Assembly: GCF_041260155.1 (NCBI RefSeq)
Contig: NC_091947.1
Location: 32,311,528 to 32,375,527 of the forward strand
From: Ptychodera flava
Lineage: Eukaryota; Hemichordata; Enteropneusta; Ptychoderidae
DNA length: 64,000 nt
Reading direction: 5' to 3'
Shown here: positions 6,464-31,454 of the stretch, in pieces
Numbering within the stretch: position 1 is the first letter of the stretch
Layout: each line of letters begins with the position of its first letter
Notes under the pieces: generated by a model
What the model was told of the DNA's origin: nothing
Database searches by the model: none
The model's input: only the letters and a program-made list of their open reading frames with translations
Made by a program: the position numbers and the translations under genes

Positions 6464-6465
6464 AG
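6464..6465. repeat. 2-bp target duplication (AG) of the ISL2EU element, left copy
   Basis: AG precedes CAGGGCTTGACA on the left and follows TGTCAAGCCCTG on the right (31453-31454). Deleting the element plus one AG restores the MULE codon series Thr-Ala-Leu-Ile across the junction, which supports a 2-bp duplication independently of the repeats. Confidence 0.75.
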
Positions 6466-6590
6466 CAGGGCTTGACAATTCCTATCGCCCGACGCCCGGG
6501 ACAAGTGAAATTTACGTTCGGGCAAGTCAAAAATAAAATCTGGTCGCCCGCCGGACAAGTTGTTTATACAACTTCTGGCGCAATCAACGC
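6466..6590 (+). repeat. ISL2EU left terminal and subterminal repeat region
   Basis: It begins CAGGGCTTGACAATT and then carries GGGACAAGTGAAATT, GGGCAAGTC and CCGGACAAGTTG. The mirrored region at 31350-31452 has the same GGACAAGTGAAATT words. Repeated 8-mers of this type near both ends are likely transposase-binding sites (inference). Confidence 0.7.
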
Positions 6591-6597
6591 GAACCTA

Positions 6598-7332
6598 AGG
6601 GACCGTCTCAGATTGTCGCAGAGTTCAAGAAACGAAATTTCTTCGTTTAGATCTAAACCCCTCCCCCCTCCCCTAAACGAAACTTCAAAAGTGCGAAATG
6701 TTCATGTCTGCCTGAGAGTACAATGTTGCATTTTGCTATAGCTACTAAGACGTATTCCCCTTGCCACATTACAATTAAAGTAATCGATCAGATTTGAGTA
6801 CTAACAGGGCATTTTACCGCATAAAGTTTCATTTTATTTTACTTTCCTTTTTGCATCTCTTGTGCTGTTATTTGTCTTTGTGAACACGCAATTTGTACTT
6901 GGTAGGGGCGGTAAATAAGCGAAAAACTTTGACAAGGGGTCCAGGCATGTTCAATCATATTAAAACGACTATGACCAGGTGGCATAACAATTGAGAATAA
7001 AGACATCTAGTGGTTAGAGCAGACGCTTATAAATAGCACATTTTTAAAAAATGATACTTTTTGTCTTTGTATAATTTGATGAATGAAATGTTTAGGATAC
7101 AATGTTCCTATCGGTAAATTGTGTTTGGGGCACAAACGAGATGGAAACAGTTACAAATTTGTTGGCACGAGTGTGCAGTTTTTCTTTAATTTAAAATAAA
7201 CACACGAAAACTTGTGATCACAAATAAAGTGCGAAAGTGAAGTTCACTAATTGAATGGAGGTCAAACCCCCTCCCCCCATAAACGAATAAATTTCGCTTT
7301 TTGAACTTCTGCGACAATCTGAGACGGTCCCT
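6598..7332. mobile_element. 735-bp MITE with about 120-bp inverted ends (AGGGACCGTCTCAG)
   Basis: The left end AGGGACCGTCTCAGATTGTC and its continuation to about 6712 match the reverse complement of about 7206-7332, including the unusual GAAATTT..TCGTTTA and C-rich segment. The interior has no coding capacity. Flanking dinucleotides are TA on the left and AA on the right, so the duplication is unclear. It lies inside the left end of the ISL2EU element. Confidence 0.75.
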
Positions 7333-8185
7333 AAGTTGCGGTGTCGCCCGATTTGCGTTGTCGTTCACACAAAATAAATGTCAATCACTGACTTTTTAGA
7401 TACAACTGGACGTTCTTCTGCGATTCATTTGCCGACTCACACAATGTTGCAATTTTTCGATGATCGACATGAAATTGTTTCATCGTCCAATTAAAAAGTT
7501 GCTTAAAACTTGGCGTAAACAGCATTTCTTTGTTGTATGCTGACTGCTCCGCCCCAATAAATTAGGTAAAAAATTGCAAAACCCAATGCCATAGTGCTTT
7601 CTATTGGCAATCGACCGTGCAGTACTTCAAAATCATTTATGCGGCCTCGCGAGGTAGACGAACATTGTTGGCAGATAGTTTGTGGAGTGATCGCTGTAAA
7701 TATGAGTATTTTACGGTAATATTTCCACTAATGCAAACAAGGCATTGTGCATTTTTCGCGAGCCAAGCGTAATTTCCACTCCGCAGACCTACGCAAAAAC
7801 CAAGCAAAGTTGTTGCCGTAAAGAGGTACGTAGTTTACGACGATGGGCATTGTGTAACTCTGAGAAACGACATTGTGATGATTTACGACGGCGCCACGAG
7901 GGCAAGCGTGAGTGGGATCGTCTGAGGATCGACGACTCGATGTGATGATCGATGTTTCTGACAAGAGATCTAAACATAAGCGTTATGATGAGGAAAAACG
8001 CCGTAGACGTTATCTCCCGAAATGGAATTTGGAAAGCACAGTGGCCTTGGTTGAAATATGACGGTTCCAAAATGTTCAGTACGTCGTGTCTCAAAACCTC
8101 ACCATAGTCCGTGACGCGGATACGGCCATCTTTGATTTGTGCGATGCATTGTGGGATTGTTTGGGGACACTGCTGTTGCCGTGCA
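7333..8185. other. ISL2EU internal/5' region before the LINE, no gene recognised
   Basis: The sequence is less AT-rich from 7600 to 8160. Overlapping frames on both strands between 7728 and 8094 are rich in Arg/Asp/His but show no recognised motif. After removal of the LINE this segment would continue directly into the THAP exon, so it may contain promoter or 5' UTR sequence of the transposase gene (inference). Confidence 0.4.
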
Positions 8186-8193
8186 ACATCAGC
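8186..8193. repeat. 8-bp target duplication of LINE (ACATCAGC), left copy
   Basis: ACATCAGC at 8186-8193 recurs at 11898-11905, directly bracketing the LINE's 3' tail and 5' end. Confidence 0.6.
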
Positions 8194-11100
8194 TAATCAT
8201 TCTTTATTAACACGTAATAATTCCCTGAGGAATTAAAAAAGGTTACAGATCAAAACATACAACAAAAAAAAGAAAAAAAAAAGGAAATGTTACTTGAAAA
8301 AGAAGAAGAAAAAAAAAGAGAAAAGTCAAGTTTGGGGGGGGTTTCTGTCTTGTCAAAAGACCAATTTTTATGTACTGTGCAAGTTTGATTGTGCATATAT
8401 TGTTGCTCATAATTTCTATGAATTTTGTATCATCATCTAATGAGGAGAAACTCAGAATATTAGATGAGATATGATAGAATAGACACTCTCTGTCTTTTTG
8501 GTGTAATTTACAGTACATAATAAAGTGTTTTTCATCATCTAACTGATCTATACAAGTGGGACAAATTCTTTTTTCCACAGGTATTTTAGAATGTCTGCCT
8601 GTCTCTATTTTTAAATTGTGTGAACCAAGTCTAAATTTGCTCATTATATTTCTTAATTCATAGTTTTGTAATTTTATTAAGTATTCTTCCAGGCCAAACT
8701 TTTGTTTGTATAATCTGTATGTCCTTAATTTATTTTTTGATTTAGTATTTGATCTGTTATCATTATTAAGGTCACTTTTCCACTGTGTTATAAATGAGTC
8801 TTTTAGGTTACAATGTATCTTGTTCAATATAGATGCTGATAATTTAGTGGAAGGAGAATCTAGAATGTCCATACCAGACAGTTTGACTAGTGACTCAGTT
8901 GTTTGATACCATTTACTTTTTACACTTGAATTAAATAAACATGATTTACTTAACAAATTGTTGTGTGATTCTACTAAATGGTTATAATATTTAGGTAATT
9001 GATTTTTTACACATGTGTCCAGTGGGTAGCGGCCCAGTTCTCCGTATATACCCAATTTGGGAGTTGATCTAGGAACACCTAAAATATAGCGGCAGAAGCT
9101 CAGATGTACATCCTCAATGGGCGAGTTGGTATTGCATTCATCTCCCCAAACCTCACAGCCATACGTCAAAATGGGTTTATTAATTTATCAAATAAAGACA
9201 GCATCAATGGTATGCTAAGATTTGAATTAGATGATAATTTTTCTTTCAGAGAAAACATTGCCTTTTGTCCCTTAATTTGAGGTTTTTCATGGCTTCTTTA
9301 AATTTGCCATTAGGGCATAATACTAATCCAAGATAATTAAATCTATTAGTAGTTTCAATTTCTTTTCCTCCAATATAGAAGGTATTTTTATCAAGTAATC
9401 TATTGCTTTTATTAAAAATCATAACTTTAGTTTTCTCAGTGTTGGCAGTTAATTGCCATTTTTTTGAATATTCGTAAAAACTATCGAGGCTATTTTGAAG
9501 GCCAGTCTTGGAAGTAGATAAAACAACAATATCATCTGCATAAAGGAGACATTTCACGGCACATTGTTCATATAAGGGGATTACATGATTGGTTATTAAA
9601 AATGGTGGGCAAATCATTTATAAATATATTAAATAGGGTTGGGCTTAAGTTGCACCCCTGTTTAACCCCTACAGTAGAGTTGAAACATTGTGTAAGTCCG
9701 GTCTTAGTTTTTATTTTATAGTTAACATTCATATACATATTCTTTATGATTTCATACATTTTACCATTGACTCCACTTTTTAAAATTTACCGAATAGGCC
9801 ATCGTGCCAAACTTTATCAAACGCTTTTTTTAGGTCAATAAAACAAGCATAAATTTTAGGTTGATGTTTTTTATTTGCAGATTTAGAGTCAGTTTTACTG
9901 TACAGATAATTATTGATAATGGATTTTAGTATAAATAGGTTGTCGGTTGTACGGCTACCTCTTCTAAACCCGAATTGTTCGTCGTTCAATATTTTATTTC
10001 TTTCTAAATATGAAATTAATCTTTGATTCAAAATGCTATTGAATAATTTTCCAAGACAACTTGAAATTGCAATTCCTCTATAGTTAGCAGGATTAGATTT
10101 TGAACCTGATTTATGAATTGGTACAATTAAGCCGGTGTTCCATGAAGTTGGGAATTTACCACTATTAAAGACTAAGTTGAAAAGTTTTTCTAAAGCAGGT
10201 ACAATAATGCTATCTCCACATTTCAACATTTCATTACAGATCAGATCCTCAGATGAGGATTTACGATTTTTCAGAAGCATCACCGCTTTTTTAATTTCAC
10301 TGGCTTGAATTGGACCATTTAGTTCAGAGTTCAATGAACTAGTTTGGGAATATATTCTTTCAAATTCTTCAAGTTTAAAGTCACCATTATTAGTATTATC
10401 ATCTTTATTCTGGTTTAGTAGCCCATGAAAATGTTCAACCCATTCATTGGCAGATATTAATTCTTCTGTAGATTGTGAAACTGAGTCGTTATCAAGTTCT
10501 TTTATTTTTTTCCAAAACTGGGAGGTGTCACCTTTCAATTGTTCAATTTCATGCAGCTGTCTAGCTTTAAATTCCTTCTTTTTGTTTTTAATTAGTTTTT
10601 TATATTGTTTTCTTAAGGTAAAATATGATATTCTAATATGAGAACAGTTAGGGAATCTGACTATTAATTTTGCTAATTTATTCACTTCCTTTCTTAAAGA
10701 AAAACAACTTTGATTAAACCATCTCTTTTGTTTTAAATTACTTCTTTTAGTTCTTTTCTTTGGAATTATTTTAGTTGCTGTTTGATCGGCAATATTAATT
10801 AGTAATGTCTGGAAATCTGCAATTGCTTTATCTGGGTTATCATAATCTCGAGCAATAAATGAGTTTATTTCAGAATCCTTTATTTGTGTTAACATGTGTT
10901 TATAGTTTAGTTTTGCAGAGTCATTCCATATATACTTATTCGGAAGGGGCTCCAAATTATTGTTTATCTGTATATGATGTATGTAGTTTACGTTTTTAAC
11001 TATGTTCATAGAAATGGATATGGGACAGTGATCTGAAAGTTCTGTCAGGCCGTGAACTCTGAAATACTGAATGGATTTATAAATGTTCTTTGAACTTATT

Positions 11101-11897
11101 ACAAAGTCTATGGCACTGCTACCGTTTGGGGAGTGGAAAGTATATTGTCCAACTGAGTCACCCACTGTTCTACCATTTGCTATCACCAAATTACAATCAA
11201 TACACATTTGTGTTAATTGTCTTCCGAATTTGTTTACACTGTGACTTGAGTTAATGTCCATGTTTGATCTTTTTATGAAATTATCTATCGAATAATTTGC
11301 TGGGAGAGGCAGATACTGACTGCCATCATCACAAATTGTGTCATTCAAATTCCCTATTCTGGCATTAAAGTCCCCTAAAAGTAAAATGTTTCCCTCAGCT
11401 GAAAATGTAATTATGTCTTTTTCTAAAATATCGAAGATATTTTGATTTGTTTTACTGTAAATTTTTGAGTTTTCTGGGGGTATATAAATACATCCTATAA
11501 ACAGGTCATTAGTGTTTGATACCAGACTTTCGTCTAGTTTCAACCATAGAAAATGTGATGAGTAACCAGGAACTTTTGAAATAAATTTTTTAAAAATGGA
11601 CTTGTACAAGACAGCGACCCCCCCACGAGAACTCCTATGATTATTAATAGCTCTATCTAAACGGGTGATTTCAAAATCAGCTAAAGCAGTGGGAAGATTA
11701 ATGATACTATTACAGTTAAGCCAAGTCTCCTGAATACAAATAAAATCAAAAGTCTTCACAAAATTAATAAAAACTGGATCATAGAATTTTTTTGCCAGAC
11801 CTATAATGTTCCAGCTTTCCACCTTTAGGGCAGGTAGGTGTGAGTTTCGGTTGTCCATCAGAAAAGGAAATACTGAGTAACCAAGCGAGCATACAGC
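8194..11897 (-). mobile_element. 3.7-kb non-LTR retrotransposon (APE-RT LINE)
   Basis: A minus-strand LINE with a short 5' segment, an APE-RT polyprotein region, a pyrimidine-rich 3' UTR (around 8240-8330) and a polyadenylation-like AATAAA near 8208 (minus strand). It is bracketed by ACATCAGC repeats. There is no separate ORF1, so the copy is either a single-ORF family or truncated just upstream of ORF2. It inserted into the ISL2EU element about 120 bp upstream of the THAP start codon and in the opposite orientation to that gene. Clade not assigned; it belongs broadly to the APE-bearing Jockey/CR1-like groups. Confidence 0.85.
8243..11858 (-). pseudogene. LINE ORF2: apurinic endonuclease plus reverse transcriptase, frameshifted
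   Basis: The intact first part (11858-9780) holds the AP-endonuclease-like domain: QETWLN, LLLGDFNAR near residue 160, SAIDFVISS, and SDHCPIS near residue 270. The start of the RT domain follows: GLIVPIHKSG, NYRGIAISS, FGFRRGSRTTDNLF and FIDLKKAFDKVWH. The RT then continues in other frames: GVKQGCNLSPTLFNIFINDL at about 9650-9750, and the catalytic YADDIVVLS box within 9617-9246. The C-terminal thumb/tail (CEVWG, ILGVPRSTPKLGIYGELGRY, a C-x2-C..H..C knuckle) is in 9169-8243. Frame changes near 9775, 9600 and 9200 break the ORF, so the copy cannot make an intact polyprotein. RNA-primed copying at a nicked target is the known activity of the family. Confidence 0.9.
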
Positions 11898-11905
11898 ACA
11901 TCAGC
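11898..11905. repeat. 8-bp target duplication of LINE, right copy
   Basis: ACATCAGC, identical to 8186-8193. Collapsing the two copies joins GCCGTGCA to GCATGCGG, which gives a plausible empty site. Confidence 0.6.
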
Positions 11906-12025: not shown

Positions 12026-12087
12026 ATGGGTGGTGGTGATCGCTGTGCTGTTTTTAAGTGTAACAATGACAGAAGATACCCAAATAA
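12026..12087 (+). CDS. ISL2EU transposase exon 1 (THAP domain N-terminus)
   Basis: The exon encodes 20 residues, M-GGG-D-R-CAVFKCNNDRRYPN, then two bases of a split codon before the donor GTAAGT. C-x4-C at the very N-terminus is the first half of the THAP C2CH zinc-binding site. Joining to the acceptor at 16531 completes an Asn codon and keeps the frame into IVKMGHIHELKWHFCPPKY, exactly the spacing expected for a THAP domain. The ATG lies after AGATATTTGGTGAAG. The intervening intron is 4.4 kb but only about 0.57 kb once the 12153-16030 insertion is removed. Confidence 0.8.
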
Positions 12088-12147
12088 GTAAGTGTATGTT
12101 AGCATTTGTTTAGTCTGAAGGCGGAACCCAATGTATAAGCTAGACTG

Positions 12148-12152: not shown

Positions 12153-12499
12153 CAGTTCGTGTTCACTCTTAATTTAGAGATGTATTATGCGCACTCGCAG
12201 TAACGTTTTGACCCGTTGACCCTTTGTTGCGCGTGCGTAGAGCAGAAAGTTGATCGTACCTAAATGTCAGAGGTCAGAGCTAGCTCCGATCGCGCGGATC
12301 GCGCTAAGTTTTCTGCCTGACTGTCTACACCGTGTGTACTCCTTCGGAAGCTTCTGCTGTATACGGTAAACTTGCCGAATCAGGTCCACAGTTACAATAG
12401 ATTAGCAATCAACAGTAAATATACCTCTTTACAGTGATCCATGATAAATTTGTGGAACCAGCGCTTCATTTTTAACTTTCCTGGGAGCACGATGCAAGG

Positions 12500-12562
12500 C
12501 CTGCGTGGCAGGGCTGTGTGTGTTACCGGCGTTGAGACCACATAACGCCGGTACCCTGCGAC
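12500..12562. repeat. GCGTT..AACGC hairpin, relic of the GCCCWGCGTAC palindromic family
   Basis: It reads CTGCGTGGCAGGG, then TGTGTGTTACCGGCGTT, then a short loop and AACGCCGGTACCCTGCG. The wording matches the ends of the palindromic elements at 13938, 31142 and 48649, but here only a short hairpin remains. Confidence 0.6.
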
Positions 12563-13927
12563 GCAGAGCCCGCTGCCCGGACTTGTATTTCATGTTTGCA
12601 TGCACGGCAGTTGTATTTCTTTGGGTGTTAAACTTCGCCATTGTACCGTCGACTGTTTGTCCCTCCCTGCCTGTCGTTGTTGATCATTTCGAATATATTG
12701 CAATGGGGCTGTGTAGGGCTTATAATTATAAATATGATGCTGCATGGAGGTAGAAACTTCTTCCGCCATCGCCACGGTGAACGTACGTTGATGCTCCGGT
12801 GGACGACTGCGCTGCACTCTTGTCTGCAGAGGTACGTCAAAGGCGATCGTCAAAAACCTAAGCTTCCGCAATGACCCTCGGGGCTAGGCTTCCATAACTA
12901 ACGTACGTTTCTAAAACTATATTTAATTTCCCTTCCCCTCTGTCTTTTGCTTCACGCCAACGACGCCAAAGGAGTCTCGCCATAATGAGGTTGGGAGGAT
13001 CCGGACTAACGGAAGGAAACCAATTGGAGAGGAATTTTAGTCAGACGTACGACACCAGGATGATAAAATTTGCCTAAGTAAATTTGCTTCATGTGCATTA
13101 TAACGTTTGTCTAGTCAAGCTTATAGGCTGATTTTCACGGTGTTTTGATTTTGCTGTTGTTTTTGGGAAAACTATTTCCTCCAAAAACCTAGTTTGAGGG
13201 TTTTCTTTCGGTTTTGTTCTTATTTTTTTATCATCATTATATTTTTTGCACAGTGCAATGAAAGCATTTGTTCTTAGGTTAATATAAAGACACATGTCAG
13301 CAGCATATCACTCATAGTTAGTTACTCAACAGGACTGTCCATGCAGCTCTATAAAGTACTACAAAAACAAGACAGAGAAACATTTATTTACTGCAAGAGT
13401 ATACGTATTTATTTGAAAATTATAATACTTATATTGTTATACATGTTCATGGTGTTGTGAAATATAATAAAGATACTGCAATATGACTTAGTACTAGTGT
13501 CTTTTTTAATTCAGATCCTCAGTCATGAAAAGCAACACAGAATTACTGCAATAACAATACTGACTAAATTCAAGGTATCTCTTGTAGAAATACCCAAACT
13601 GCAGACCTTTACGATCCATCACCAAATTGACTAATCACAGGGCCAGGTTACTTACCCATATGACCCCATACATATATCATCTCAAAAACAAAAACTTATT
13701 ATAAATGCTTGGCAACCCTAAGATCAAAATTCTTTTACTCTCGAGAACACAATTTGTATTGTACTCTACAATATCTGATAATGCAACATTTATTTTAAAA
13801 TGGGATCAAAATCCTAAATATTTATAATGGTGTATTTCCCCTCTTATCACTAACATCGAATTCAGTTCAAGTTTGAACCCATCTAAAGTGCGGTAGTACC
13901 CACTGACTTGATTCAATTCGTATACTG
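12563..13927. other. interior of the CAGTTCG element, no gene recognised
   Basis: Mixed-composition DNA. Overlapping small frames on both strands at 12590-12874 reflect a GC-richer patch and carry no motif. From 13050 on the sequence is AT-rich with no structure I can name. Confidence 0.4.
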
Positions 13928-14039
13928 CCACTTGACGTAGCCGGCCCTGCGTATAACGCTGCATGTTCCTGGCGTTACACGGTTTGGAGGGCCGTGTAGC
14001 GCCTTAGATCAAATGAATTAATTTAGAATACATTGTGTA

Positions 14040-14290
14040 CCTTTCAAAAACCTCTCTCTTGTCATGGCAATGAATAGAAATAGCAACGGAGTAAAGATGG
14101 CAATGGAGTATAGATGGCAATGGAGTATAGATGGCAAGTGCACTTGCCATCTATACTCTTGCAATCTATACTCCATCCATTGCCATCTTTACTCCCTGCA
14201 ACCATTTCTACTGGCCATAGACTATACTAGCCCTTGATTTGTTGAGTCACTGTCAAACATAATGTCTAATTTGAATCTTCAGGCCGTTGA
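14040..14290. repeat. minisatellite block 1, GATGGCAATGGAGTATA units with palindromic core
   Basis: About 18-bp units such as GATGGCAATGGAGTATA are repeated and then inverted around TGGCAAGTGCACTTGCCA, so the block can fold back. The trailing unique part (CCATAGACTATACTAGCCCT) recurs after block 2, showing a segmental duplication of the whole module. Confidence 0.85.
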
Positions 14291-14529
14291 GCAAGGCACT
14301 TTACTCCTCAGTGCTCCATTGGGGTAGAGGGTTGTGGGTACCTCATCCTGTAAATGGGCTAGCGCCCGTTGGATGATAGACTAAATAAAAATTAGAACAA
14401 AGAAATCTGTTTGACTTGTTATAGAAATAAACCTCAGTGAAGTTTTCATTGTTCTGAATCAAACAGTGAATGATTAAAATCAATCGGCCTAAGAGCAAAT
14501 GAATTCAGTTCAAAATTCATTGTGTACCT

Positions 14530-15120
14530 TTCAAAACTTCTTTCTCGTCAAGGTTAAAAAATATAAATAGCAATGGAGTATAGATCGATAGCAATTGAGT
14601 ATAGAAAGCAATTAAGAATAGATAGCAATGGAGTATAGATAGCGATGGAGTATGGATGACAACAAAGTATCAACAGCAATGGAGTATAGATAGCAATGGA
14701 GTATAGAAAGCAATTGAGTATAGAAAGTAATTGAGTATAGAAAGCATTGAGTATAGATAGCAATTAAGTATAGATAGCAATGGAGTATAGATAGTGATGG
14801 CATATGGATGACAACAAAGTATCAACAGCATTGGAGTATACATGGCAATGGAGTTTAGAAAGCAATTAAGTATAGAAAGCAATTAAGTATAGATAGCGAT
14901 GGAGTATAGATAGCATTGGAGTATAGATAGTGATGGAGTATGGATGACAACAAAGTATCAACAGCAATGGAGTATAGATGGCAATGGAGTATGGATGGCA
15001 AGTGCATTTGCCATCTATACTCCTGCCATCTATACTCCACCCATTGCCATCTTTACTCCCTGCAACCATTTCTTCTGGCCATAGACTATACTAGCCCTCG
15101 CTTTGTTGAGTCGTTGTCAT
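14530..15120. repeat. minisatellite block 2, expanded AGCAATGGAGTATAGAT array
   Basis: It opens with CTTTCAAAACTTCTTTCTCGTC (first bases shared with block 1). It then has roughly 25 degenerate copies of 'agcaatggagtatagat' and the same inverted core and 3' flank as block 1. Long open frames on the minus strand (LYSIAIYTP-type repeats) are a by-product of the repeat period and are not called as genes. Confidence 0.85.
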
Positions 15121-15371
15121 GGTTCTGCTTGGGCAAGTCAGCCCGTTCATCGTAAATTCAACTTGTAAAAGATGTTTCCTCCCGATTTTCCTGAGCCGTG
15201 TCAAGGGCAGAGTATAGATTGAATGCGATATTTTATTTGCATAACAATTTGAGTGATATGCCAGTGTATGTGTCAAAGGTCAAACGGAGTGTAGATGGCA
15301 ATGAGTATAGATGGCAGAACACGTGTAGCGCCGGGAACACACACCATAGTACGCAGGGCTACCACTTGACG

Positions 15372-16030
15372 CAGCTGAACACTGGGATGAAACTGTGGAC
15401 AGTTGAAGGCTGTATTTTTTTCAATAAAAGAATTCCTTCACGGGCTGTTCTATAAGTCGCCATGCATAAGATCGTTATATTCTTGGTACGTCTACAAAGC
15501 TAAAACGTCGGAATTTCCCAAAATTGAAGTAGGCCGCGATGCATGTAAGAAAATGTCGAGTGTCCCCCGATGTCCCCCATGGCACAACGGCCATAAAATG
15601 CTGGCCTTTGTGTCCACCAATTGTTCATCGACAGTATTGTTCACGTGGGATGAAAAAATCGGCCAAAAAAGACACTGTACGATGGATTTGAATATAGCTG
15701 AATGAAATCATGGATATTCTGACAGAAACAACATGGCGGAAACTCTGAGAGGACCGCTGAAAGTATTGCATAAAATCTACCGGAAATCCGAACTTTCCAC
15801 CCTCGCTGGTTGCCATGACGTTAACTGAAAGTCCAAACTGTTTCTGCTTCCAAGCTTGACCCGAATATGTGTCTCGATCGCCTTTACACAAGAGCCGAAA
15901 GCACCCAGTGCGGGACGAGTGCCCTGAAAAAAATCCATGTTCGTGTCGAACGGGTCGCTTATGCAAATGTCAATCTGCGCATGCGTAGTGCTCCAAAATA
16001 CATCTCTAAATTAAGAGAGAACACGAACTG
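15372..16030. other. right part of the CAGTTCG element, unassigned
   Basis: It includes an open minus-strand frame at 15625-15966 with a mixed, protein-like composition (H, C, W, K and R) but no motif I recognise. It could be an exon of the element's own lost transposase or a chance frame. Confidence 0.35.
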
Positions 16031-16531: not shown

Positions 16532-18094
16532 CATTGTGAAGATGGGTCACATTCATGAACTGAAGTGGCATTTCTGTCCTCCAAAATATCGATCCCTCTG
16601 GCTCCGATTGATCAACAGGAAAGATTTGCTGCATATTACAGACAACACACGCATATGTAGCAACCACTTCCTTCTTGGACGACCCATGGGTGAGCACCCT
16701 CATCCTACATTGTACATGAGGGGGTATGAAGGCAAGGGAAGTCACACTGAGAACCTGATACTACAGCCTATTCTTGATCAATGGTCAGTTGCAGATCAAA
16801 CAAATTATATCACAACACGACAAGGTGCTGTGAAAAGAAAAATTCAAAATAAAGTTTCCATTTCAAAAGAGAAAAAGAAAAGAATTGATCAAGTTCCCCC
16901 CAGTGATGAAAAAATCTCTTATCCATTCAAAGATCATGATTACTGTTTTGATGAAAAACCACTCAGGGGAAACATTACCAGTTTACATAACAGCCCCTGT
17001 ACATGTACAAAATGCCAAGTGTGTGAGGCTTCATTTGCCAAGTTGAAACAAGAAAATGAAGAACTCCTCAGCAAAATAGATAACCTCCATAGCAAAATTG
17101 ATGAACTAACAAAATTATCCAAAAGTACTCAAAAAATCAGATATGACATTGATCAAATAAAAGACTCTGACACATTAGTTCACCTCCACACTGGCTTGCA
17201 AAACTTTGGTATTTTCATGTGGATTTTTAATTTGGTAAAACTAAAACTACCGCATATCCAATACTACAGAGGAGCTCAGTCAGATAAAATTAAGTCCTAT
17301 CAGCTGAATAAAAGCAAAAAACCAGGACCAAAAAGACTTCTCTCTCATAAAAATGAACTCTTGATGACACTCATGAAACTGAAATTGAATTTAACCGAAA
17401 GTTATTTGGGCTATCTTTTTGGCACATGTACTAGTCTTGTTTCCCAAGTACTATCGACTTGGCTGCCCCTGTTAGATCTTGAACTGAAACCATTGATTAA
17501 ATGGCCAAGGCAGGAAGATCTCCATTTGTACTACCCGAACTGTTTCAAAGCGTATGGCAATGTAAGAGCAATTTTATCATAGATTGCACTGAAGCACCAA
17601 TCCAACGACCATCACTGGCAACAGTCAACAGTCAAATATATTTATCATATAAGGGAAGACCAACTGCAAAAGTACTTGTGGCATGCACTCCTGCAGGCAG
17701 TGTTTCCTTTGTTTCTAAAGCAGCAGGAGGTTGCATGAGTGACAAAGAGCTTGTCAAACGATCTGGGATCACTGATCTTTTTGACCCTGGTGATACAGTT
17801 CTTGCAGACCGAGGATTCAACATTCAAGAACTCCTCCTTTACAAGCATGTACGGCTTGTCATTCCACCATACCTCAAAGGAAAGAAACAACTGACAACAG
17901 CCGAAGACAAGCAGACCAAACAAGTTGCCAATGCTAGGATACATGTGGAACGGGTGATAGGTCGAATGAAGGACTTCCACATCATGAGATCTGAACTTCC
18001 ATTAGATATGTTTGATTTATTCGATCATATTGTGGGAGTGGTGGCAGCTCTCATAAACCTTCAACCGCCAATCGTGCCAATCAACAGCAGGTGA
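16532..18094 (+). pseudogene. ISL2EU transposase exon 2: THAP C-half, coiled coil, HTH, DDE_4 domain (one frameshift)
   Basis: After the acceptor TTTTTAACTATAG the exon completes the THAP domain: KWHFCPPKYRSLW, then ICSNHF, giving the second C and the H of C2CH. There follows a basic linker, a CTCTKCQVC cysteine patch, a coiled coil (KLKQENEELLSKIDNL), and an HTH_Tnp_4-like segment (LLMTLMKLKLNLTESYLGYL). The DDE_Tnp_4 domain carries the triad in IIDCTE, VLADRGF and HVERVIGRMK. The frame changes once near 17570, in a T-rich stretch between YGNVRAI and IIDCTE; both sides are otherwise open, ending at 18092-18094. All catalytic residues remain, so the copy may be recently inactivated or the indel may be a sequencing error. 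It is the cut-and-paste enzyme of the element and lies tail to tail with the YqaJ gene. Confidence 0.87.
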
Positions 18095-21288: not shown

Positions 21289-22568
21289 CTAAAACTGATG
21301 ACGTTCATCGTGCATATCTCGACGTTTACCGTGAAATATCACGGCTGATATTTTACGTTGAACGTCACTAGGATGTAGCATATGGGCATGGGTATATGAT
21401 AAATTACATATATATTCAGTAATACAAGAAGTATTCTCATTGGGATTTTCAACATGCTCATCTCTACATTCCTGTGTAACTTGTGGAGTTTGTTCAACAT
21501 TACATCCTGTCATTTCAATTTCTTTCCTTACTTTTCCATGAATAAGTTCAGGAATTATTATGGACTTAAATACAACCAAACACTTTGAATATACTTCTTC
21601 CATTAACATAGGATCAAAACATATCTCTTCGAAATGTAGATTGTTGTAGGGACTTGCTGTTTTTAAAGCAAAATAACCAACTCCAGATTCCAATGAAAAT
21701 AGTTGCCCTTGCACTTGAAAAAAATATGGATGATTGGATTTGAGTTTTATTTGCCCAGAAGATGTAATATGCAAACAAGAATCAGGGAGCTCAGCATATT
21801 TAGGGATGGACAAATGTCTCATTTTGTATGGATTCTTAACTTCAAGTGGACGAATCCCACAACAATCACACGTCACCAGTGCATCAGGAGAAGCAGCTAT
21901 TATTGGGCATCTGGGATACAAGATTAGGCCACATTGCTTAACACTCAATTTCCTATGAAACTTGCGATTCACACGAAGAAATTGTTGAATAGCAATTCCT
22001 TCATTATATTTCCCCCAATCAGTAGCTGGTGAAGAGAAAGGAGGATTGTAATTCATGACACACTTTAAGAATGATGTATTCTTGTCACTCACAGTTCCAT
22101 CTACTGACACTTTTCGTGTTACATCAAAGAGTCTAGTGGCAGTTATGCGACCAACACGATACTTATACCACATATCTGAATCAGACTGATTTACAGTTGC
22201 ATCACTGACTAACTGTACAACATTAGTGTCAATTGGGTTCATAGCACTCTCTATTAAAGTTTGTTCATCACACTGTTCAGCAAGTTCTGGTAATGATGGG
22301 GGTAAAACAGGCTCCTCAATCACCGAAGTCTCCTCTTGAGTGACGACTACTTCTTGCGTGACAGAAATTTCTGATAAATCTGGGTTTTGACGATCAGGAT
22401 CTGCTGCGATATTCATGTAACACAAAATACCAGCATTCCCACCGGTTACCTCACGTAGACCATCGAGATCCATATCTTCCACCTTTCTTTGTTGTCTGTC
22501 ATCTATAGCCCTTGGATCATACCTGAAGCGGTTAGACTTGGACACAGTTTCCTCCACGATACAGTTAC
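21289..22568 (-). CDS. ISL2EU nuclease gene, last exon: YqaJ-family exonuclease domain
   Basis: The last and largest exon of the minus-strand gene starts after the acceptor AAATATGCAG. An acidic, low-complexity linker is followed by the YqaJ/PD-(D/E)XK fold: WYKYRVGRITATRLF, WGKYNEGIAIQQF with the conserved Glu, IAASPDALV with the metal-binding Asp, and GIRPLEVKNPY supplying the ExK pair. YFFQVQGQLF then matches the conserved Gln motif. All catalytic residues are present, so the nuclease domain looks intact. YqaJ proteins trim DNA ends exonucleolytically; in ISL2EU elements a role in processing or repair during transposition is inference. The final roughly 35 residues (after ITEYICN) run into inserted repeat sequence and may not be native. 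Confidence 0.85.
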
Positions 22569-23303
22569 CTGCATATTTAACAAAGATGTATGGTTACTCA
22601 TAAAATATTCAGCATGCCTGCTGTAGTACCTTCTATCTCATCTTCTTCTTTTCATGTAGGATAACAAAGTTTGGCTCAGGAGGTCGCCATTGCATAATGT
22701 TGTTAAAAACAGTTTCCCCTACCAACACATTGATTATAGAACATTGTACAATGGTATAAGATTATACACCTGCTTCTGTAATATGGTGTTTTGTCACATT
22801 GTAAATTCAAACATTACTGAACGTAGAGAACAATGACTTAGATGCAAAGTACAATTACTTTGCTGTCTTTGGATGCTCCCTCACAATTGACATGACAACT
22901 GTTTTTATGTGAACACCACGAAAACAAGACAATCTGATCATTTGTTTTAGAATATCAATCAGGACGATTAGGTCATATGATCAAGGAAGACTAGACCAAA
23001 AGGTATGATTTTATGATAAAATATTTCTGCTGAACTGTGATTGTCTCACTGAAAATATGCAAATTCTATTGCTTACTTGTTTGGTTTTATACCAGGACAG
23101 TACTTTGTGTCTGGAGCACAAAGCAGATTCGTAGGTTGTGTAATATTGGTTGCCTAGTCAGAATGTGAACATGTGACCACTTTTAAATACAACAGTTTTA
23201 ACAGTTAGCAAAAGCTAGACACCACTGGTACGTTACTACCTCCTTTTTATTATTCTCAGTATCACTTTTAAAACTCAAGAGCACAAAGGAAGGTAAATCT
23301 CAC
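22569..23303 (-). other. intron of the YqaJ gene
   Basis: Intron between donor GTGAGA (23303 downward) and acceptor ATATGCAG. Phase 1 is preserved across it. No embedded element was recognised. Confidence 0.6.
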
Positions 23304-23470: not shown

Positions 23471-24690
23471 CTATTGTGCAGAAAGAAAAAAGATAAATAA
23501 AATGTTACCAGATGTTATAATCTGAGATTATAAATACTTACAGTGCAAAATATTGTCTATCTCCCTTACTACATGTACCAATCAATTCATGTATATTCTA
23601 GTACATGTCAATTGACTGCTGTGTCTTGAAGTTACTTTGAAAGCTATATATACCATACCACGGACAAACAATATACATCTACATTCAGACTGGAAAAAGT
23701 TGGAAAGGTTTCTATTGTGCTGTTCCCTTACAGACTATTAAAACGCCTATGAATCTGTTCTGGTCCAATACGGGCACAAATGTTTCAAAAATGAGACGGT
23801 TAAGTCCGCCAGACCTGAGCCAGTGTAGGGATTATTTCTATCCACAACTTGCTGTGTGTATGGACTGAACTGCTTCAGAGCGATCTTAAGTTCCCTCGTG
23901 CAACAGGTATTTGTAACAAATAAACAACAACCAACATTCAATTTCTTTCGTTATGGCTGCTGAACAGAACACTACATTCTGTGACAATAGTTGGTTTGAC
24001 CACCAGATCAGTCTGATCATCTCAGTCTGAGCGGACGAAAGTTTACAGAGAATGGTGAATAGAACCTGTAGAGAAAGCCTCGTTCACAAAAATAGTGCTG
24101 AAAGGGTTCTACGAAAGAGTATAAACAGGATAGCTGATCAATTCGACTGCAAGATAAAGGCACCGAAATGGAAGTACAAAGTTGTTTACAGCAACAAGCA
24201 TAGGCAGTATGGAAGTACGAAAGCATTCATGTTAGCCGTTTTGTTACAGTGCTGAATGCTTGGCCATATACACCTTTTGAACTTGAGAGAGCACATTAAG
24301 CTGGCTTACACAACAAAACAGACTTAATTTTTTGTGTGTGCGTGTGGACACAAGCAGACTCAAACTACTTATCCCCTTTGTTTGCAAAACGCAAATAGTT
24401 TTCACAGAAACATTTCCAATTTTTTACTGTCTGAACGTAGTATGTGACACTATTTGTGATTTGCAGACACAGGAGATTAATAGTTAGAGTACGCTTAATG
24501 TCCACACACAAAATTAAGTCTTTGTTTTGGTATTTAAGCCTGTTTAATGCACCCTTTCAAGTTCAAGAGGTGTATATGGCAAAGCACACAGTATTGTAAC
24601 AAGAAGGCTGACATGAATGATGCGGTGCTGTTGTACTGCCTGATGCTGTAAGCAACTACTGTCAATCTAATTTTTATAAATATGACTCAC
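23471..24690. other. intron of the YqaJ gene, with a short hairpin-like repeat
   Basis: Intron sequence. From about 24230 to 24600 there is an inverted similarity (TTTTGAACTTGAGAG..GCACA against GTGC..CTTTCAAGTTCAAGAGG and TTAATTTTTTGTGTG against CACACAAAATTAA), indicating a foldback MITE of about 350 bp. No coding signal. Confidence 0.55.
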
Positions 24691-24934
24691 CCTCCAGGAC
24701 AAGAACAGTAGCCATCGATAATTTGACACCTTTCTTTATGGACTAATATCCAACAGGAGTATGGGTCTGCAGATATACTGGTCTCTCTAATGACCTTGGC
24801 TTTGATGAAACAATAAGGGATATCGGCAGCAACACCATGGTATTTAAGACCATTGACATGAGAGGATAGATGGAGAGATTTCCCATCTCTCAAAGACTCC
24901 TTTCCTCTGGTCTTAATACCTATCGCTTGATTTT
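24691..24934 (-). CDS. YqaJ gene exon 2: region leading into the SWIM finger
   Basis: Acceptor TTGGTTTTTTGTAG, then NQAIGIKTRGKESLRDGKS..CFIKAKVIRETSI..YSCWILV and CQIIDGYCSCPGG up to donor GTGAGT. CSC supplies the first two zinc ligands of the SWIM domain. The 244-nt length gives phases 1 to 2 and joins both neighbours in frame. Confidence 0.82.
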
Positions 24935-25854
24935 CTACAAAAAACCAAAATTGAATGATTTGAGCATCTCTGTTTAACAAGTCTTTACATAATAGTTGAT
25001 CATGCTTTAAAAGACTGCAAAAACTAAAACTATTACTATAATTATTTGTAACTAACTAGGTATTAGAATATGAATATGAATATTGCATATGTAATCATTG
25101 TAAATACTCACTTGTTATTATTTAATCATTGACCTATAAAAAAAAGAAAAAGAACTTTAAAATGAAACAATAAAAATATATATGTAACAAACAAATAAAG
25201 AAATAGCCAAAACAGCGACTGTACCGACTATATTATACATGTACACAGAGATATCATAGCTGTAAGATCAAATGATAGTACTACATGTTATTATCGTTAT
25301 AACTGAAGGAAAATGAGTAAAAAAACTTAAAAGCCCAAATTAGCTGTATCTTTTAGCATATTTTTATGACTTTACTTAGGTACACACTAATCAAAGTACC
25401 TGCTGGGACAGTATGTGCAATATTGAATGGGATAAAGATTACACTATTATTAAATGTTTGCCCACACAATGAATTGAAGTCCCATGCAAAAAAACACCAA
25501 AAAACGTGGATACTGTGCATATCTGCACTGAAGTCTTCACATAAACTGCACAGAGTAGTCCAATGTAAAATATGGGGATGAATATTTTCAACTGTTACAT
25601 TGTAGGTTCTGTTTCCATTGTTATATAATCAATTGTTTAAAATGGCGGGAAATCAAAATGACCGTTAACATTTGAATATTGAATTGTCAAATGGTTTACA
25701 AAAGAATGCTTTCCGAATGTAGAAAAAGCCCGTATCTCTTCAGAGGGTTCAATTCAGAGAGAACCAGGAGAGAGTAGGGAGATAATTTGAGGTCAACAAA
25801 CTCCACGGGTTACAGCTAGCTGGCAGGGCTTGACAAAAGGGTCGACATTGCTAA
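24935..25854. other. YqaJ intron 1, upstream of the 4.4-kb insertion
   Basis: AT-rich intron DNA. At 25824-25835 it contains a CAGGGCTTGACA word identical to the ISL2EU terminus, about 28 bp before the TAA-flanked element. No exon was found here. Confidence 0.5.
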
Positions 25855-26749
25855 GGGGAGAACCATTTGATTTCTGGGGGGGTATGGAGGATTTTGAGAG
25901 AAAAAAAATTGTCACCAGGTGAGAGAGAAGAAAAAAAAATTGATCCTGTCATGGCCTGAGAAAAAAAAATTGTCATAACAGACAGAAGAGAAAAAAAAAT
26001 TGTCACAATGCACCAGAAATAAGCAAATTTGGAAACCTTATTCTCATGTATTCTTTGCCGGCGCGCCGCCGTAGGCGGCCCAAATGTTTTACCAAAAGCA
26101 ATTCTTATGTTTCTTTTCCCAGCACTTATGATATAAGCATGCACTACATAGGTCTACTTTACACCTCAGTACACTCAATGTTTTCCTTCCATTTTCTGAC
26201 CCAAGAAATCATATTTCAGGATTTCTGTTGCAATATCTCAATGGCATAGGCACTATCTAAAGGGGACTATTTGACTTCTGTAAATTGTGAAAATTTAAAA
26301 CACAAGACAGGAGTCAATAAACTAGTGTTAAAACCAATATATTATTTTCTCAATATAAATTTGTTAGAAAGATGTACCTTGACAATGAAAAATTGAGGAA
26401 AAACAAATATAATGAAATACAATGTGTGAGCCTTGTTTTTCTGACCACAAACACCGGATCGCAAACATACCATATTCAGGCTTTTCATTAGAAGCTGGCA
26501 GCTGGAGAAATGACACAAGAAGGTCACAGATTTTCCGTTCCTGTATATTCATTTGTCTTCAGTCTCTGGCAAACAGAACTGTTTTTCACAAATTGTATTG
26601 TCATTGTTGGTTGTTGAATATTGAGACTCAAAACTGATCATGCAAAAAATGTAAAAAATATCAGTCTTCAATGTCATTTTCAAACAGTTTTACCGAGTGC
26701 AAAATAAACTGAAACTCCTCTCAATTGCACCATTAAACACATCAATTTC

Positions 26750-27000
26750 TCAAAATTTCCAATACGAGAGGGGGAACCCCCTCTCGTGCTCTCCCCCTTG
26801 GGGTATTCTAACAGTTTCACTTAGTAAACAAATTAAAAAACCTCTCAGATTGCACCAGACTGCACCATTGCACACATCAATATCTTAAAAATTTCCATGC
26901 AAGATAGGGGAAAGCCCCTGTGACACTTTCCCCCTAAGCCTCTCTCATGTTCTCCCCCTGTACTTTCAAATTCTGCCCGGTCAGATATCCTAGTGAAAAC
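26750..27000. repeat. imperfect duplication 'CTCTCGTGCTCTCCCCC'
   Basis: Two adjacent blocks (about 26700-26820 and 26830-26960) share 'cacatcaat.tct.aaaatttcca' followed by G-rich then CTCTCCCCC words. They look like a divergent tandem pair inside the TAA element. Confidence 0.5.
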
Positions 27001-27629
27001 CCTGTCATAATATCCATCCAAATTAAACAATATACTACTGTATATGATTAGATACTGCGTGATCTTTTATATCTTTATTTTATTGTGACTTTGAATTTCA
27101 TTTTGATGTGTTCACCTTTTTTGAACCATCATGAGATAGCTGATGATAGTCTAGCAGGGTACATCAGGATTTGAAGGGTCTTTACTGTTGCTGTATTTTG
27201 TAAATTTTACAATTACATGTATTGGTATTTAACTTTTCTGAGTGGGGAATGGTCAAAATTTCAGAGTTAGAGAGGATGGTTACTCAAATTCATCATGGTT
27301 GGTGAAGGGGGGAGGGTCACTCGAAATTTCGGAGTTTCAGGCCGTCAATAATGACGGCTCCCTTATATACAACGCATTACAAACTTAATGACCAATAAAA
27401 AAAAAAAGAGCGTCAATTACACTGTAGCTCCCATCCTGGACTATTTAGTGTTTGTTCTCTGGTCAGATATTTGAACATGTGTGAAAGGGATAAAGTGCAT
27501 GAAGTGAAAATACTTAAATGAAATGTACTGGAGACAGTGAAATATGTTTAATGTAATTATTCAGAATATAAATGGAAAAAATACAGAATTAGATATATCG
27601 AATACTGTGATACAACCATTAACTCAACA

Positions 27630-29610
27630 AGTCATTTACAATGACATAGTCCCCACTTGTAATAGGAGTATTAGTCTTGATGGGGCAGGAAAATGTGGTC
27701 ATTAAGAAGTATCACTGGGTGTATATGTTGAGATCTATGGCACATAGGTCTATGTTGTTGTTCCCAATTTGAAACACATGAGGCATGTCTAAGTTATGGT
27801 TCTAAATCGGGAAAAAAGATCAGACCTCTAGCAGTATTGGCCAGCCAAGAAATACATATGCGCATTATAAATGAGGTACAAGATGTGACATCTTAAGGTC
27901 TAATATCCTATCAAAATTGGAGGGTATAGAACTTGTGGTTACTGAAATATGCATATATGTATAATCAAAGGTCAAAGGTCATGGAGGTCACATGACATTT
28001 TGAAAAAAAAATTATATTGCTAATTAATCCCTATATGCCAAAAATCAGATCTCTAGCTCTATTCGCTTGCCCAGAATTAGATGTGTACATAATTAATGAG
28101 GTAAAGCGTGTGTTGTCATAAAGTCTCCCATCCTACTAAATACAAAGGACATAGCACTTGTGGTTACTTATTTATTGACATAAACATATATTTTAGGTAA
28201 AAGGTCATCGAGGTCACATGACATTTAATCAAAAAATTTCTCTCCTATAGTTATCCCTATATACCAAAAATCAGACATCCAGCTCTATTGGCTCGCTCAG
28301 AATGAGATATGTGCATAATTATTGAGGTACAGTATGTGGCGTCATAAGGTGTCCAATCATACCAAACATGAAGGGTGTAGCACTTGTGGTTACCGAGTTA
28401 TGGAAAAATATGTATATTTGAGGTCAAAGGTCACCGAGGTCACGTGACATTTTGTCAAAAAAATTGTTTTGCTAAGTTATCCCTATATACCAAAAATCAG
28501 ACCTCTAGCTCTATTGGCTCGCTCAAAATTAGATATGCGCATAATTAATGAGGTACAATATGTGGCGTCATAAGGTGTCCCATCATACCATACATGAAGG
28601 CTGTAGCACTTGTGGTTACTGAGTTATGGACAAATCTGTATATTTGAGGTCAAAGGTCACCGAGGACACGTGACATTTTGTCAAAAAAATTGTATTGCTA
28701 AGTTATCCCTATATACCAAAAATCAGACCTCTAGCTCTATTGGCTCGCTCAAAATTAGATATGCACATAATTAATGAGGTACAATATGTGGCGTCATAAG
28801 GTGTCCCATCATACCATACATGAAGGCTGTAGCACTTGTGGTTACTGAGTTATGGACAAATATGTATATTTGAGGTCAAAGGTCACCGAGGTCACGTGAC
28901 ATTTTGTCAAAAAAATTGTATTGCTAAGTTATCCCTATATACCAAAAATCAGACCTCTAGCTCTATTGGATCGCTCAAAATTAGATATGCGCATAATTAA
29001 TGAGGTACAATATGTGGCGTCATAAGGTGTCCCATCATACCATACGTGAAGGCTGTAGCACTTGTGGTTACTGAGTTATGGACAAATATGTATATTTGAG
29101 GTCAAAGGTCACCGAGGTCACGTGACATTTTGTCAAAAAATTGTTTTGCTAAGTTATCCCTATATACCAAAAATCAGACCTCTAGCTCTATTGGCTCGCT
29201 CAAAATTAGATAAGTGCATAATTAATGAGGTACAATATGTGGTGTCATAAGCTGTCCCATCATACCATATATGAAGGGTGGTAGCACTTGTGGTTACTGA
29301 GTTATGGACAAATATGTATATTTGAGATCAAAGGTCATCAAGGTCACATGACATTTTGTCAAAATATCCGAGATATCTGCGTGAACGGATGGACTCACGG
29401 ATGGACGAACAGACAGACATGACCCAATCTATAAGCTCCTGGACTTCATCCGTGGGGACTAAAAATTGTGTCACTGCATCCTTTTTGCAATATGAATACG
29501 ATGAGAAACTAAATTTTTACTTTTCGTGGCCTTATACATGGGAGTCTATGGAGATCTGCCTTATACATGGGAGTCTATGGACGTGAACTAAAAATATGCA
29601 AATTTCACCA
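27630..29610. repeat. dispersed repeat (AGTCCCCAC..GTGGGGACT) with internal satellite, copy 1
   Basis: The left portion (27630-27800) and right portion (29385-29610) match 34450-34640 and 35085-35310 nearly base for base, in the same orientation. Boundaries include AGTCCCCACTTGTAATAGG and CCGTGGGGACTAAAA. The centre differs: here it is the 226-bp array, in copy 2 a different unit of about 130 bp. Confidence 0.8.
27740..29400 (+). repeat. 226-bp tandem repeat, about 7 copies
   Basis: The phrase GCACTTGTGGTTACTGAGTT recurs at about 27930, 28155, 28381, 28607, 28833, 29059 and 29285, a spacing of 226 bp. Each unit also has GAGGTCAAAGGTCACCGAGG and TCAGACCTCTAGCTCTATTG. The three middle units are nearly identical and the outer ones diverge, as unequal exchange predicts. 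Short open frames inside are repeat artefacts. Confidence 0.92.
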
Positions 29611-30009
29611 CGATTTGCCCAAATTTGGGAAAGGTCACTCCTATGCACTTCCATACCAAGTTTCAAATCAATCGGACTTGTGGTTTCAGAGCAGGAGATT
29701 TTTTGACCAAAATGGGAGAAAATTACAAAAAAATTCATGAAAAATAGCAAGTCCAAGATACTGACCCAAGATGTGCACAATCATTTCATGTCAGCCCAAA
29801 GTACTTACATGCTAATTTTTCATGTAATCTGCTCAGTGGTTATTGAGTTTTTTCAATTTTGACTGTTTTTACATTTTTTCACTTAATTTGCATATTTTTG
29901 GCAATGACAACTTCATTTGAACAAAATCTCATCTACAGCCCATCATCCATGTACACACCAAATATCAAGATGAAATGTACAGCGGTTTTGGAGTTTTTGA
30001 TGTTGACGG

Positions 30010-30058
30010 ACAGACATACAGACATACAGACATACAGACATCACAGACATACAGACAT
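30010..30058. repeat. ACAGACAT microsatellite
   Basis: About five tandem copies of the octamer ACAGACAT interrupted once. Confidence 0.85.
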
Positions 30059-30361
30059 TTCCCTAGCCTATAAGAATAGCTTCCATTGCCATATAATACT
30101 ATATATGCACTGCTACTCCATTTGGAAAAAAAAAATTGATGCAGGTCTGACAGTAGAAAAAAAAAATTGCTGTCACTCTAAAAGGAAAAAAAAATTTGCT
30201 CCCATACCCTCTTCCTCCATACCCCCCCCCCAGAAATCAAATGGTTCTCCCCTAAGGACGATGCATGCAAGTATTGAACACGTAAATGTTAAATATAACT
30301 AAAAATCATTATATGGTAATATAGTAACACAGGTAGCTGGAGGTCAAATTAAAGTAAATAC

Positions 30362-30695
30362 TTTTGTCGAAGTAGCTTTCTACTCTGCTCTGCTCAACAT
30401 CTGGGAAGCTGTGAGGAGAGTCCTCCCATCCGAATTGAATGCCATCGGGATCTGGCAGACGGATGACACCTTCGTTCAAAACCAACTTTTGGGCTTTGGC
30501 ATCAGCGATGTCTTCAAGCTGTTCTGTGATGGGAGGTTTCCGCTGCAAATCTAGCTGCTCTGCAGCATAGCAGTTCTGCACGAGCTCATCTTTTAGGGAA
30601 ACACCGACCGGAACACCCCGCGTGATTAAAAATTGCCTCAGCTCAGGCACTGTCCAGGACTGAAATTGGCGAGCTGCCGCCGGACAAGTAGCCAT
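30362..30695 (-). CDS. YqaJ gene exon 1: SAP DNA-binding domain
   Basis: The chosen start encodes M-ATCPAAARQFQ followed by SWTVPELRQFLITRGVPVG and SLKDELVQNCY, a clear SAP motif (W..eLr.fL..RG....KdeLv). The 111 codons plus one base end at donor GTATTT, completing a Lys codon with exon 2. The frame stays open further upstream to about 31220, but that part overlaps a palindromic MITE, so I start at 30695. SAP motifs bind scaffold-type AT-rich DNA; here it would tether the nuclease. The combined protein (SAP-SWIM-YqaJ) is about 674 residues with no interruption seen. Confidence 0.75.
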
Positions 30696-31141
30696 GATGC
30701 ATGTGCTGACTGATGACCCCAAACAATCCCAGAATTCAGCGCGTCCGTCGTCATTTCCGCTATCCGCGAAAGAGACTATTGCCAAAGCATGGAGGTAGGA
30801 AGAGACTACCTCCATGACCAAACCATGCGAAATGCTTTTCTTGACAGATACGACATGTTTCGCGTTGAATCGATAAGGTCTCACGAGTTTAGTCAACCGC
30901 GTTTGGACTGTTTGGCGCATCGCAGATGAGATCGTGACGGGGACAATGATTGTGGAAATTTTGTGGGTCCCGCTGAGCCCGATAGTACGGTTTCGCTTGC
31001 CAACAATCCGATCACATGCACTCGCAATGCGTGAACCGAATGACGACGACCAGCGATAGAAACTGACCAATCTTTTTACGACGTCATTTATGCTTGCCAA
31101 AAACGGAAGCCGATGTATGATATGTACCTTCAAATTCATGT

Positions 31142-31236
31142 TAGCTCTGCGTACAGGTCTGTGAGTTCCCGGCGTTATACGGCCTCTTGTGGTGGAGGCC
31201 GTATGACGCCGGAAACACACAGACCGTACGCAGGCC
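31142..31236. mobile_element. about 90-bp palindromic MITE of the GCGTACAGGTCTGTG family
   Basis: The arms CTGCGTACAGGTCTGTGAG and CACACAGACCGTACGCAGG pair around GGCCTCTTGTGGTGGAGGCC. It shares end sequence with 48649-49025 and 13938-15361. A clean duplication is not visible here. It lies just upstream of the SAP exon. Confidence 0.75.
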
Positions 31237-31339
31237 TACTTCAATGTAAACTTTTGAAAAAAAATCGGCGTCAACATCGGCGAAAATTACCAAGATAAGA
31301 AAGCCCTGAAAGCCGCTACGGACTTCGTCGCAAGCATTT

Positions 31340-31452
31340 TGGTCTTGATTATTACAAATGGAGGACAAGTAAAATTTTTGAGAGGACAAGTGAAATTGAA
31401 AATCCACTTGTCCGACGGACAAGTGAACTGGAAAAAAAATTGTCAAGCCCTG
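31340..31452 (-). repeat. ISL2EU right terminal and subterminal repeat region
   Basis: Mirror of the left end: TTGTCAAGCCCTG at the terminus and, inward, GACGGACAAGTGAA, CCACTTGTCCG, GGACAAGTGAAATTG and GGACAAGTAAAA. Confidence 0.75.
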
Positions 31453-31454
31453 AG
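31453..31454. repeat. 2-bp target duplication (AG) of ISL2EU, right copy
   Basis: See the left copy at 6464-6465; the MULE coding frame confirms a 2-bp duplication. Confidence 0.75.

Follow-up and report, generated by a model that had tools for sequence, protein, structure and literature searches.

The question raised by this locus is how a MULE transposase gene came to be divided by 24,987 bp of other DNA. The stretch analysed (hereafter the window) comprises 64,000 nucleotides of Ptychodera flava contig NC_091947.1, positions 32,311,528 to 32,375,527, and an earlier note on it attributed the interruption to a 25-kb ISL2EU-type transposon. The answer reached here is that, very probably, a Harbinger-like (PHIS) cut-and-paste element with the ISL2EU gene set was inserted into the MULE transposase gene and duplicated an AG target. 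Nesting of transposons is commonplace; a histone-type stem-loop behind the transposase gene of the insert, in contrast, was not expected, and the AG target is also notable.

An interrupted MULE transposase gene

The inserted element, including all DNA nested within it (24,987 bp), extends from position 6466 to 31452. The 15-bp terminal inverted repeats of this CAGGGCTTGACA element (CAGGGCTTGACAATT; 6466..6480 on the plus strand and 31438..31452 on the minus strand) match perfectly, and both are directly flanked by the dinucleotide AG (6464..6465 and 31453..31454). When the minus-strand flanks are joined without one AG the sequence DLGIDRVVAWGTEGKTALINSFENAYPTVSGTSVHLRCFAHV is obtained, and the joined minus-strand protein, with these 2 bp removed, reads GTEGKT-ALINSFENAYPTVSGTSVHLRCFAHVEDDLKKKLKSLGF. 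Three other spacings were tried, and removal of 0, 1 or 3 bp at the joint left the two sides out of frame. The boundaries at 6466 and 31452, the 2-bp duplication and the passage from GTEGKT to ALINSFENAYP on removal of the insert and one AG, all of which had been proposed from the letters alone, were thus borne out. Perfect inverted matches of at least 15 bp at two given points are rare, and occurred in 6 of 2,000,000 random point pairs from this window. As 3,381 inverted pairs of exactly matching 15-mers are present in the window, such a pair would be weak evidence in a blind search, and its weight here derives from its location exactly at the protein joint.

The earlier note regarded the joint as sequence-internal proof of the insertion. 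The joint is suggestive, but a deletion of any length keeps the frame one third of the time and an uninterrupted relative was therefore needed. Nine proteins were matched in a search with the joined MULE protein. The best of these, P0001, is an uncharacterized P. flava protein of 490 amino acids, encoded on a contig of 48,197,526 bases, which is uninterrupted and shares 98 % identity with the window MULE protein (local alignment). Across the joint it reads GTDGETALINSFENAYP without a gap, and in the aligned stretch at the joint (KTFGIDRVVAWGTDGETALINSFENAYPTVSGTSVHLRCFAHVEDD) zero residues are missing or extra. Eight further relatives (30–38 % identical, multiple alignment) are also gap-free through this region. 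Comparison with uninterrupted relatives, which the earlier note had proposed as its check, thus revealed at the protein level neither additional residues nor unrelated sequence at this point in P0001 or the eight others, and the insertion, its ends and its duplication in the MULE transposase gene are confirmed. A second P. flava protein, P0010, which is identical to an open reading frame of the insert, is encoded on a contig of 39,134,633 bases, and to judge from these records the uninterrupted MULE copy most likely sits on a different contig from the window locus.

The upstream part of the MULE transposase is a 435-amino-acid open frame (31479..32786, minus strand), which ends at 31479, approximately 15 codons before the joint, while the downstream part (5008..6465, minus strand) contains several frame breaks, with more stops past the joint. 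The continuous codon series described in the earlier note is therefore open across the joint itself, but is broken approximately 15 codons upstream and by stops downstream. With frame breaks both before and after the joint, this MULE copy is a pseudogene. A first exon can be read at approximately 33,010-33,090 (minus strand) and matches the start of P0001. Where all relatives (9/9) read GTDGE, the window reads GTEGK, and the aspartate changed in the window is presumably the second catalytic aspartate.

The host element is delimited by terminal inverted repeats of approximately 320 bp (1160..1477 on the plus strand and 40907..41228 on the minus strand), of which the left and right copies are approximately 93 % identical, and these are flanked by the 9-bp target site duplication ATGCGTATT (1151..1159 and 41229..41237). 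This was the sole exact 9-bp repeat among 483 placements tried at the repeat ends, and 9 bp are shared by chance in 29 of 2,000,000 random point pairs. The host thus spans 40,069 bp (1160-41228) and would measure 15,080 bp if the insertion and one AG were removed. Target duplications of MULEs are mostly 9 bp and their terminal inverted repeats are long; both features are present here, and the identification of the host as a MULE in the earlier note stands on these repeats and the exact duplication. The host resembles other MULEs in its 9-bp duplication, its long inverted repeats and a weak MULE domain match among its relatives, and differs from them in being interrupted and decayed.

Genes of the insert and a histone-type stem-loop

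Two convergent genes are encoded within the insert. The transposase gene lies on the plus strand and is predicted to begin with an exon at 12026..12087 (MGGGDRCAVFKCNNDRRYPN), encoding the first half of a THAP domain and followed by a GTAAGT donor. A second exon (16532..18094, start predicted) encodes the rest of the THAP domain as well as HTH_Tnp_4 and DDE_Tnp_4 domains, and terminates in a stop codon (18092-18094); it contains a single frame break near 17,570. Pfam comparison identified HTH_Tnp_4 (2.7e-11), DDE_Tnp_4 (2.9e-42) and, with the exon joint spliced by eye, THAP (7.8e-6; 27.0 bits against a cut-off of 23.9). The best organism-named transposase relative, P0032 of Branchiostoma lanceolatum, shares 55 % identity over 99 % of the query, and its N-terminus is similar as well. 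The second gene lies on the minus strand in several exons and includes an open reading frame with a YqaJ exonuclease domain (21289..22593; Pfam 1.2e-9), an open reading frame with the first half of a SWIM-like zinc finger (24687..25055) and one with a SAP-like exon (30309..31235), the start of which overlaps a repeat at 31140-31238. In P0016 and P0017 of Branchiostoma a SWIM-like segment and YqaJ occur in a single chain, the SWIM-like segment being recognised by eye and missing from their precomputed domain lists. A PHD finger is listed for 5/20 YqaJ relatives, while the window YqaJ open reading frame has no such end. This frame is 100 % identical to P0010 over 99 % of its length, from which the window most likely represents either the P0010 locus of P. 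flava or a very recent duplicate of that locus. P0010, although its sequence is that of a transposon gene product, is filed publicly as an ordinary uncharacterized P. flava protein (isoform X1).

A match to the histone 3' untranslated region stem-loop (RF00032; 18109..18153, plus strand) is located directly behind the transposase gene, the stem beginning 20 nt past the last base of the stop codon on the coding strand. It reads CCAAAU-GGCCCUUUUCAGGGCC-ACCAAAUCCUCAAAAAAGAGAACU, with the stem GGCCCU/AGGGCC and the loop UUUC, and is followed by the purine-rich stretch CAAAAAAGAGAACT; a purine-rich downstream element has a role in the formation of histone-type 3' ends. In an Rfam search of the whole window with all families, the match scored 36.6 bits against a curated cut-off of 34 (E = 5.2e-7), and it is the sole match above curated cut-offs in the 64 kb. 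The 71-nt hairpin stretch was not equalled in folding by any of 200 shuffles (z -3.57). Fourteen other Rfam matches, all to microRNA families in palindromes or satellites, fell below their cut-offs and were rejected (best E = 1.9e-8, 52.6 bits against 117). Since this best E-value belongs to a palindromic insert (18933-19080) that scores far under the cut-off of its family, the E-value alone should not carry the stem-loop assignment, which is carried instead by the curated score, the position and the strand.

As described in PMC2781718, this hairpin takes the place of a poly(A) tail on the replication-dependent histone mRNAs of animals, which require it in order to be coupled to replication. 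The transposase 3' end is alike to those of replication-dependent histone genes in its stem-loop, flanking bases and purine-rich stretch near the stop codon, and is unlike them in that the hairpin stands behind a transposase, the surrounding open reading frames scanned against Pfam not being histones. No link between the histone stem-loop and a transposon was found in the titles and abstract openings searched, a set that excluded subscription papers and preprints. This arrangement, seen in one copy, suggests that the transposase mRNA may be finished like a histone mRNA.

The stem-loop, however, probably arose by chance or is a captured, functionless fragment. It is seen in a single copy only, the related contig described below has no such match, the transposase is already broken, and an AATAAA at approximately 18,160 would permit ordinary polyadenylation; furthermore, hairpin E-values can mislead, as the microRNA match in the palindromic insert illustrates. 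Set against this are the score above the curated cut-off and an E-value obtained over the whole window and all families, and the fact that the core motif occurs here once, on the sense strand, 20 nt past the stop codon and with matching flanks, while 100 dinucleotide shuffles of the complete window yielded it 5 times over both strands. It is thus only tentatively, and with some doubt, proposed that the transposon gives its transposase mRNA a histone-type 3' end composed of the stem-loop and a downstream element, resulting in an S-phase transposase, and that the element is also a PHIS variant which duplicates a GC-containing 2-bp target in place of AT. Under this proposal, dividing cells of the germ line or the embryo, which are rich in histone-processing factors, would make the transposase during S phase, and a cut-and-paste element moving from replicated to unreplicated DNA would gain a copy. 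If such a 3' end were used, the transposon would tie the mRNA of its enzyme to DNA replication via the histone machinery of the host, and the question of how cut-and-paste elements could time themselves to gain copies would have an answer open to direct testing.

Assignment of the element and its relatives

The ISL2EU group is defined, in the passages of Han et al. 2015 (PMC4482050) that describe it, by duplication of AT within the site A|AT|T; its ends usually start with GG and its autonomous elements average approximately 4,840 bp. According to the relevant portion of PMC12730594, Harbinger relatives with duplications of 0, 2 or 3 bp are on record, and Repbase also files Spy, which is without duplications, as ISL2EU. 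The ISL2EU gene set is present in the insert, with THAP, HTH and DDE transposase domains in one protein and a YqaJ exonuclease domain in the product of the second gene. The ISL2EU-type assignment in the earlier note is therefore upheld by gene content, while the element is not canonical with respect to the published description just cited. As the defining AT feature is not found, the label ISL2EU-like is used. An AT duplication later masked by point mutation is impossible, because the joint in P0001 encodes Thr-Ala (ACN GCN), which leaves no room for AT. The gene content points to ISL2EU, and the element is regarded as a variant that would work as an ISL2EU does but falls outside the published definition. 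Compared with the ISL2EU elements (PHIS/Harbinger-like) of those passages of PMC4482050, it is alike in combining THAP, HTH and DDE in one protein with YqaJ in another and in having an animal host, and unlike in its AG duplication, its CAGGG ends, a size of approximately 11–12 kb against an average of approximately 4.8 kb and its histone-type stem-loop. The insert shows that AG can be duplicated by a transposon carrying the ISL2EU genes, and, should other copies agree, the AT rule published for the group may not be general.

Several observations weigh against the reading of an ISL2EU-like element inserted into a MULE. The duplication is AG where the group is defined by AT, and the ends begin with CAGGG (CAGGGCTTGACAATT) and not GG, although the word 'usually' in the definition makes the latter less strict. 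The element is seen here as one copy, and the opening 13 bases of its end occur a third time at 25824-25838 (plus strand), within a presumed intron of the YqaJ gene, unexplained and with no partner of their own. The SAP-like (6e-4) and SWIM-like (1.8e-3) matches are below the Pfam cut-offs. On the side of the host, the window protein has no MULE match in Pfam; PF10551 (MULE) matches 4/10 scanned proteins at E-values up to 10, the best being 1.1e-4 and under the cut-off. Transposase_mut matches 1/10 scanned proteins (4e-4).

Nonetheless, the ends and the two genes likely belong to one element. The 8-mer GGACAAGT occurs eight times in the window (both strands), with 6/8 occurrences within 100 bp of the two ends, and this clustering at both ends indicates that they are those of a single element. 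No other end pair longer than 11 bp with a 2- or 3-bp repeat was found with left ends sought in 5000-16480 and right ends in 31000-33000. Only 15 bp and short subterminal matches align between the two ends. The best other inverted match between them is of 29 bp at 86 % (8141-8169 against 30714-30742), and its score of 38 exceeds the top score of 35 among 60 shuffles; it lies inside both element ends and includes ACAATCCCA, which we take to resemble a ZNF143-type site.

It is improbable that the CAGGG-ended element belongs to another superfamily with 2-bp duplications, into which a true AT-duplicating ISL2EU element was later inserted. Such a history would accommodate the departure of AG and CAGGG from the signature published in PMC4482050. 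However, only approximately 0.8 kb separates the SAP motif of the YqaJ gene from the right end of the element, and no AT-flanked, GG-starting end pair longer than 8 bp was found, the sole 8-bp pair (13451/32282) running from a left end within a nested element to a right end within the MULE. Furthermore, other DNA-transposon domains were not found in nine scanned open reading frames of the element (44 were listed over 4500-33500). Very unlikely, too, is an inner element (25824-31452) sharing the right end, with two elements of the same family nested or overlapping. The third copy supplies 13 exact end bases in the correct orientation at 25824, but its left neighbour is GG rather than AG, no GGACAAGT occurs near it, and the YqaJ gene appears to span this position, with the SAP exon on one side and SWIM and YqaJ on the other. 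That the joint represents an assembly error or rearrangement instead of an insertion is scarcely credible, as nothing positive favours it, while one and the same base is marked by perfect ends, by the AG repeated on either side and by the comparison with an uninterrupted relative. A single ISL2EU-like element carrying both genes is retained as the most likely reading.

A convergent transposase/YqaJ gene pair also occurs on contig JAAXGN010000095.1, the one relative contig obtained from 16 pattern matches in the bacterial/archaeal collection; no second such contig was found in 84 genomes of the same phylum. Two of the matched proteins, P0020 (YqaJ) and P0081 (transposase), are each placed on a contig 22,237 bases long, which may be the same in both cases. 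The related contig is alike to the insert in its two convergent genes and in a YqaJ gene apparently of several exons on the opposite strand, and unlike it in that its transposase is 35 % identical, it is compact (3.6 kb), the ends lie off the contig, a PHD finger is present and the histone stem-loop match is lacking. It is filed under a Poribacteria genome, yet its genes are apparently intron-split and form an animal-type pair, and it probably represents contamination by DNA of the host animal. Among viral contigs, alignment scans of 37 (transposase) and 15 (YqaJ) pattern matches revealed no relative. The CAGGGCTTGACAATT-type end pattern was matched in 30 viral stretches, with one match each and no pair, and these were taken as chance.

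Nested insertions, order of events and neighbouring repeats

The 25-kb size given in the earlier note is correct from end to end, but at least 9,460 bp consist of five later insertions, in addition to a LINE and palindromes. The five insertions, each with its own target site duplication, are an element with GGGACCGTCTCAGA ends (6599..7331; TAA, Harbinger-type by its duplication only), an element (12153..16030; TATAT) that lies in the predicted intron of the transposase gene and has ends of 37 bp (CAGTTCGTG...), a foldback element (18252..18393; TTGTGCAAC, 9 bp, MULE-type by its duplication only), a palindromic element with arms that are 89 % complementary (18864..19149; TAA) and a 4.4-kb element with GGGGAGAACCATTT ends (25855..30252; TAA). 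Each counted with one copy of its duplication, they total 9,460 bp, and 15,527 bp remain after their removal. This remainder is further inflated by the nested LINE (8243..11900, minus strand, ends approximate), of at least approximately 3.6 kb, by self-inverted stretches (20268-20610 and 24180-24657) and by the repeat at 31140-31238. The backbone of the ISL2EU-like element is thus estimated at approximately 11–12 kb. The LINE includes endonuclease and reverse transcriptase open reading frames (9780-11900 and 9246-9617) and an adjoining frame (8243-9184). A 10-bp direct repeat was found as its candidate target duplication, but 12/200 random pairs do likewise, and no duplication is claimed.

The nesting yields a clean order of events, with the MULE followed by the ISL2EU-like element and then by further elements, most with their own duplications. 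The MULE copy would have inserted first. The transposase of the ISL2EU-like element, with its THAP and HTH DNA-binding front and DDE nuclease, may then have cut at the CAGGG ends and joined them, with a 2-bp stagger, to the target in the transposase exon of the MULE; the YqaJ protein presumably served as an accessory nuclease. Later arrivals, namely small Harbinger-type elements, the LINE, the TATAT-duplicating element, the 9-bp-duplicating foldback element and satellite-bearing DNA, would have expanded the insert from approximately 11–12 kb to 25 kb, and both transposases would have decayed afterwards. With both transposases decayed, this copy is now scarcely capable of autonomous transposition.

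Some of the repeats recur elsewhere in the window. The 4.4-kb element holds a 226-bp satellite (27815-29364; approximately seven copies), and pieces adjoining this satellite recur at 34478-35512. The repeat at 31140-31238 recurs at 48526-49465, within a larger element with inverted repeats that lies beyond the MULE, while an arm of the foldback element (18252-18393) recurs at 83–89 % identity at 41801-41854, just beyond the right end of the MULE. A perfect TA repeat of 63.5 copies is located at 59893-60019.

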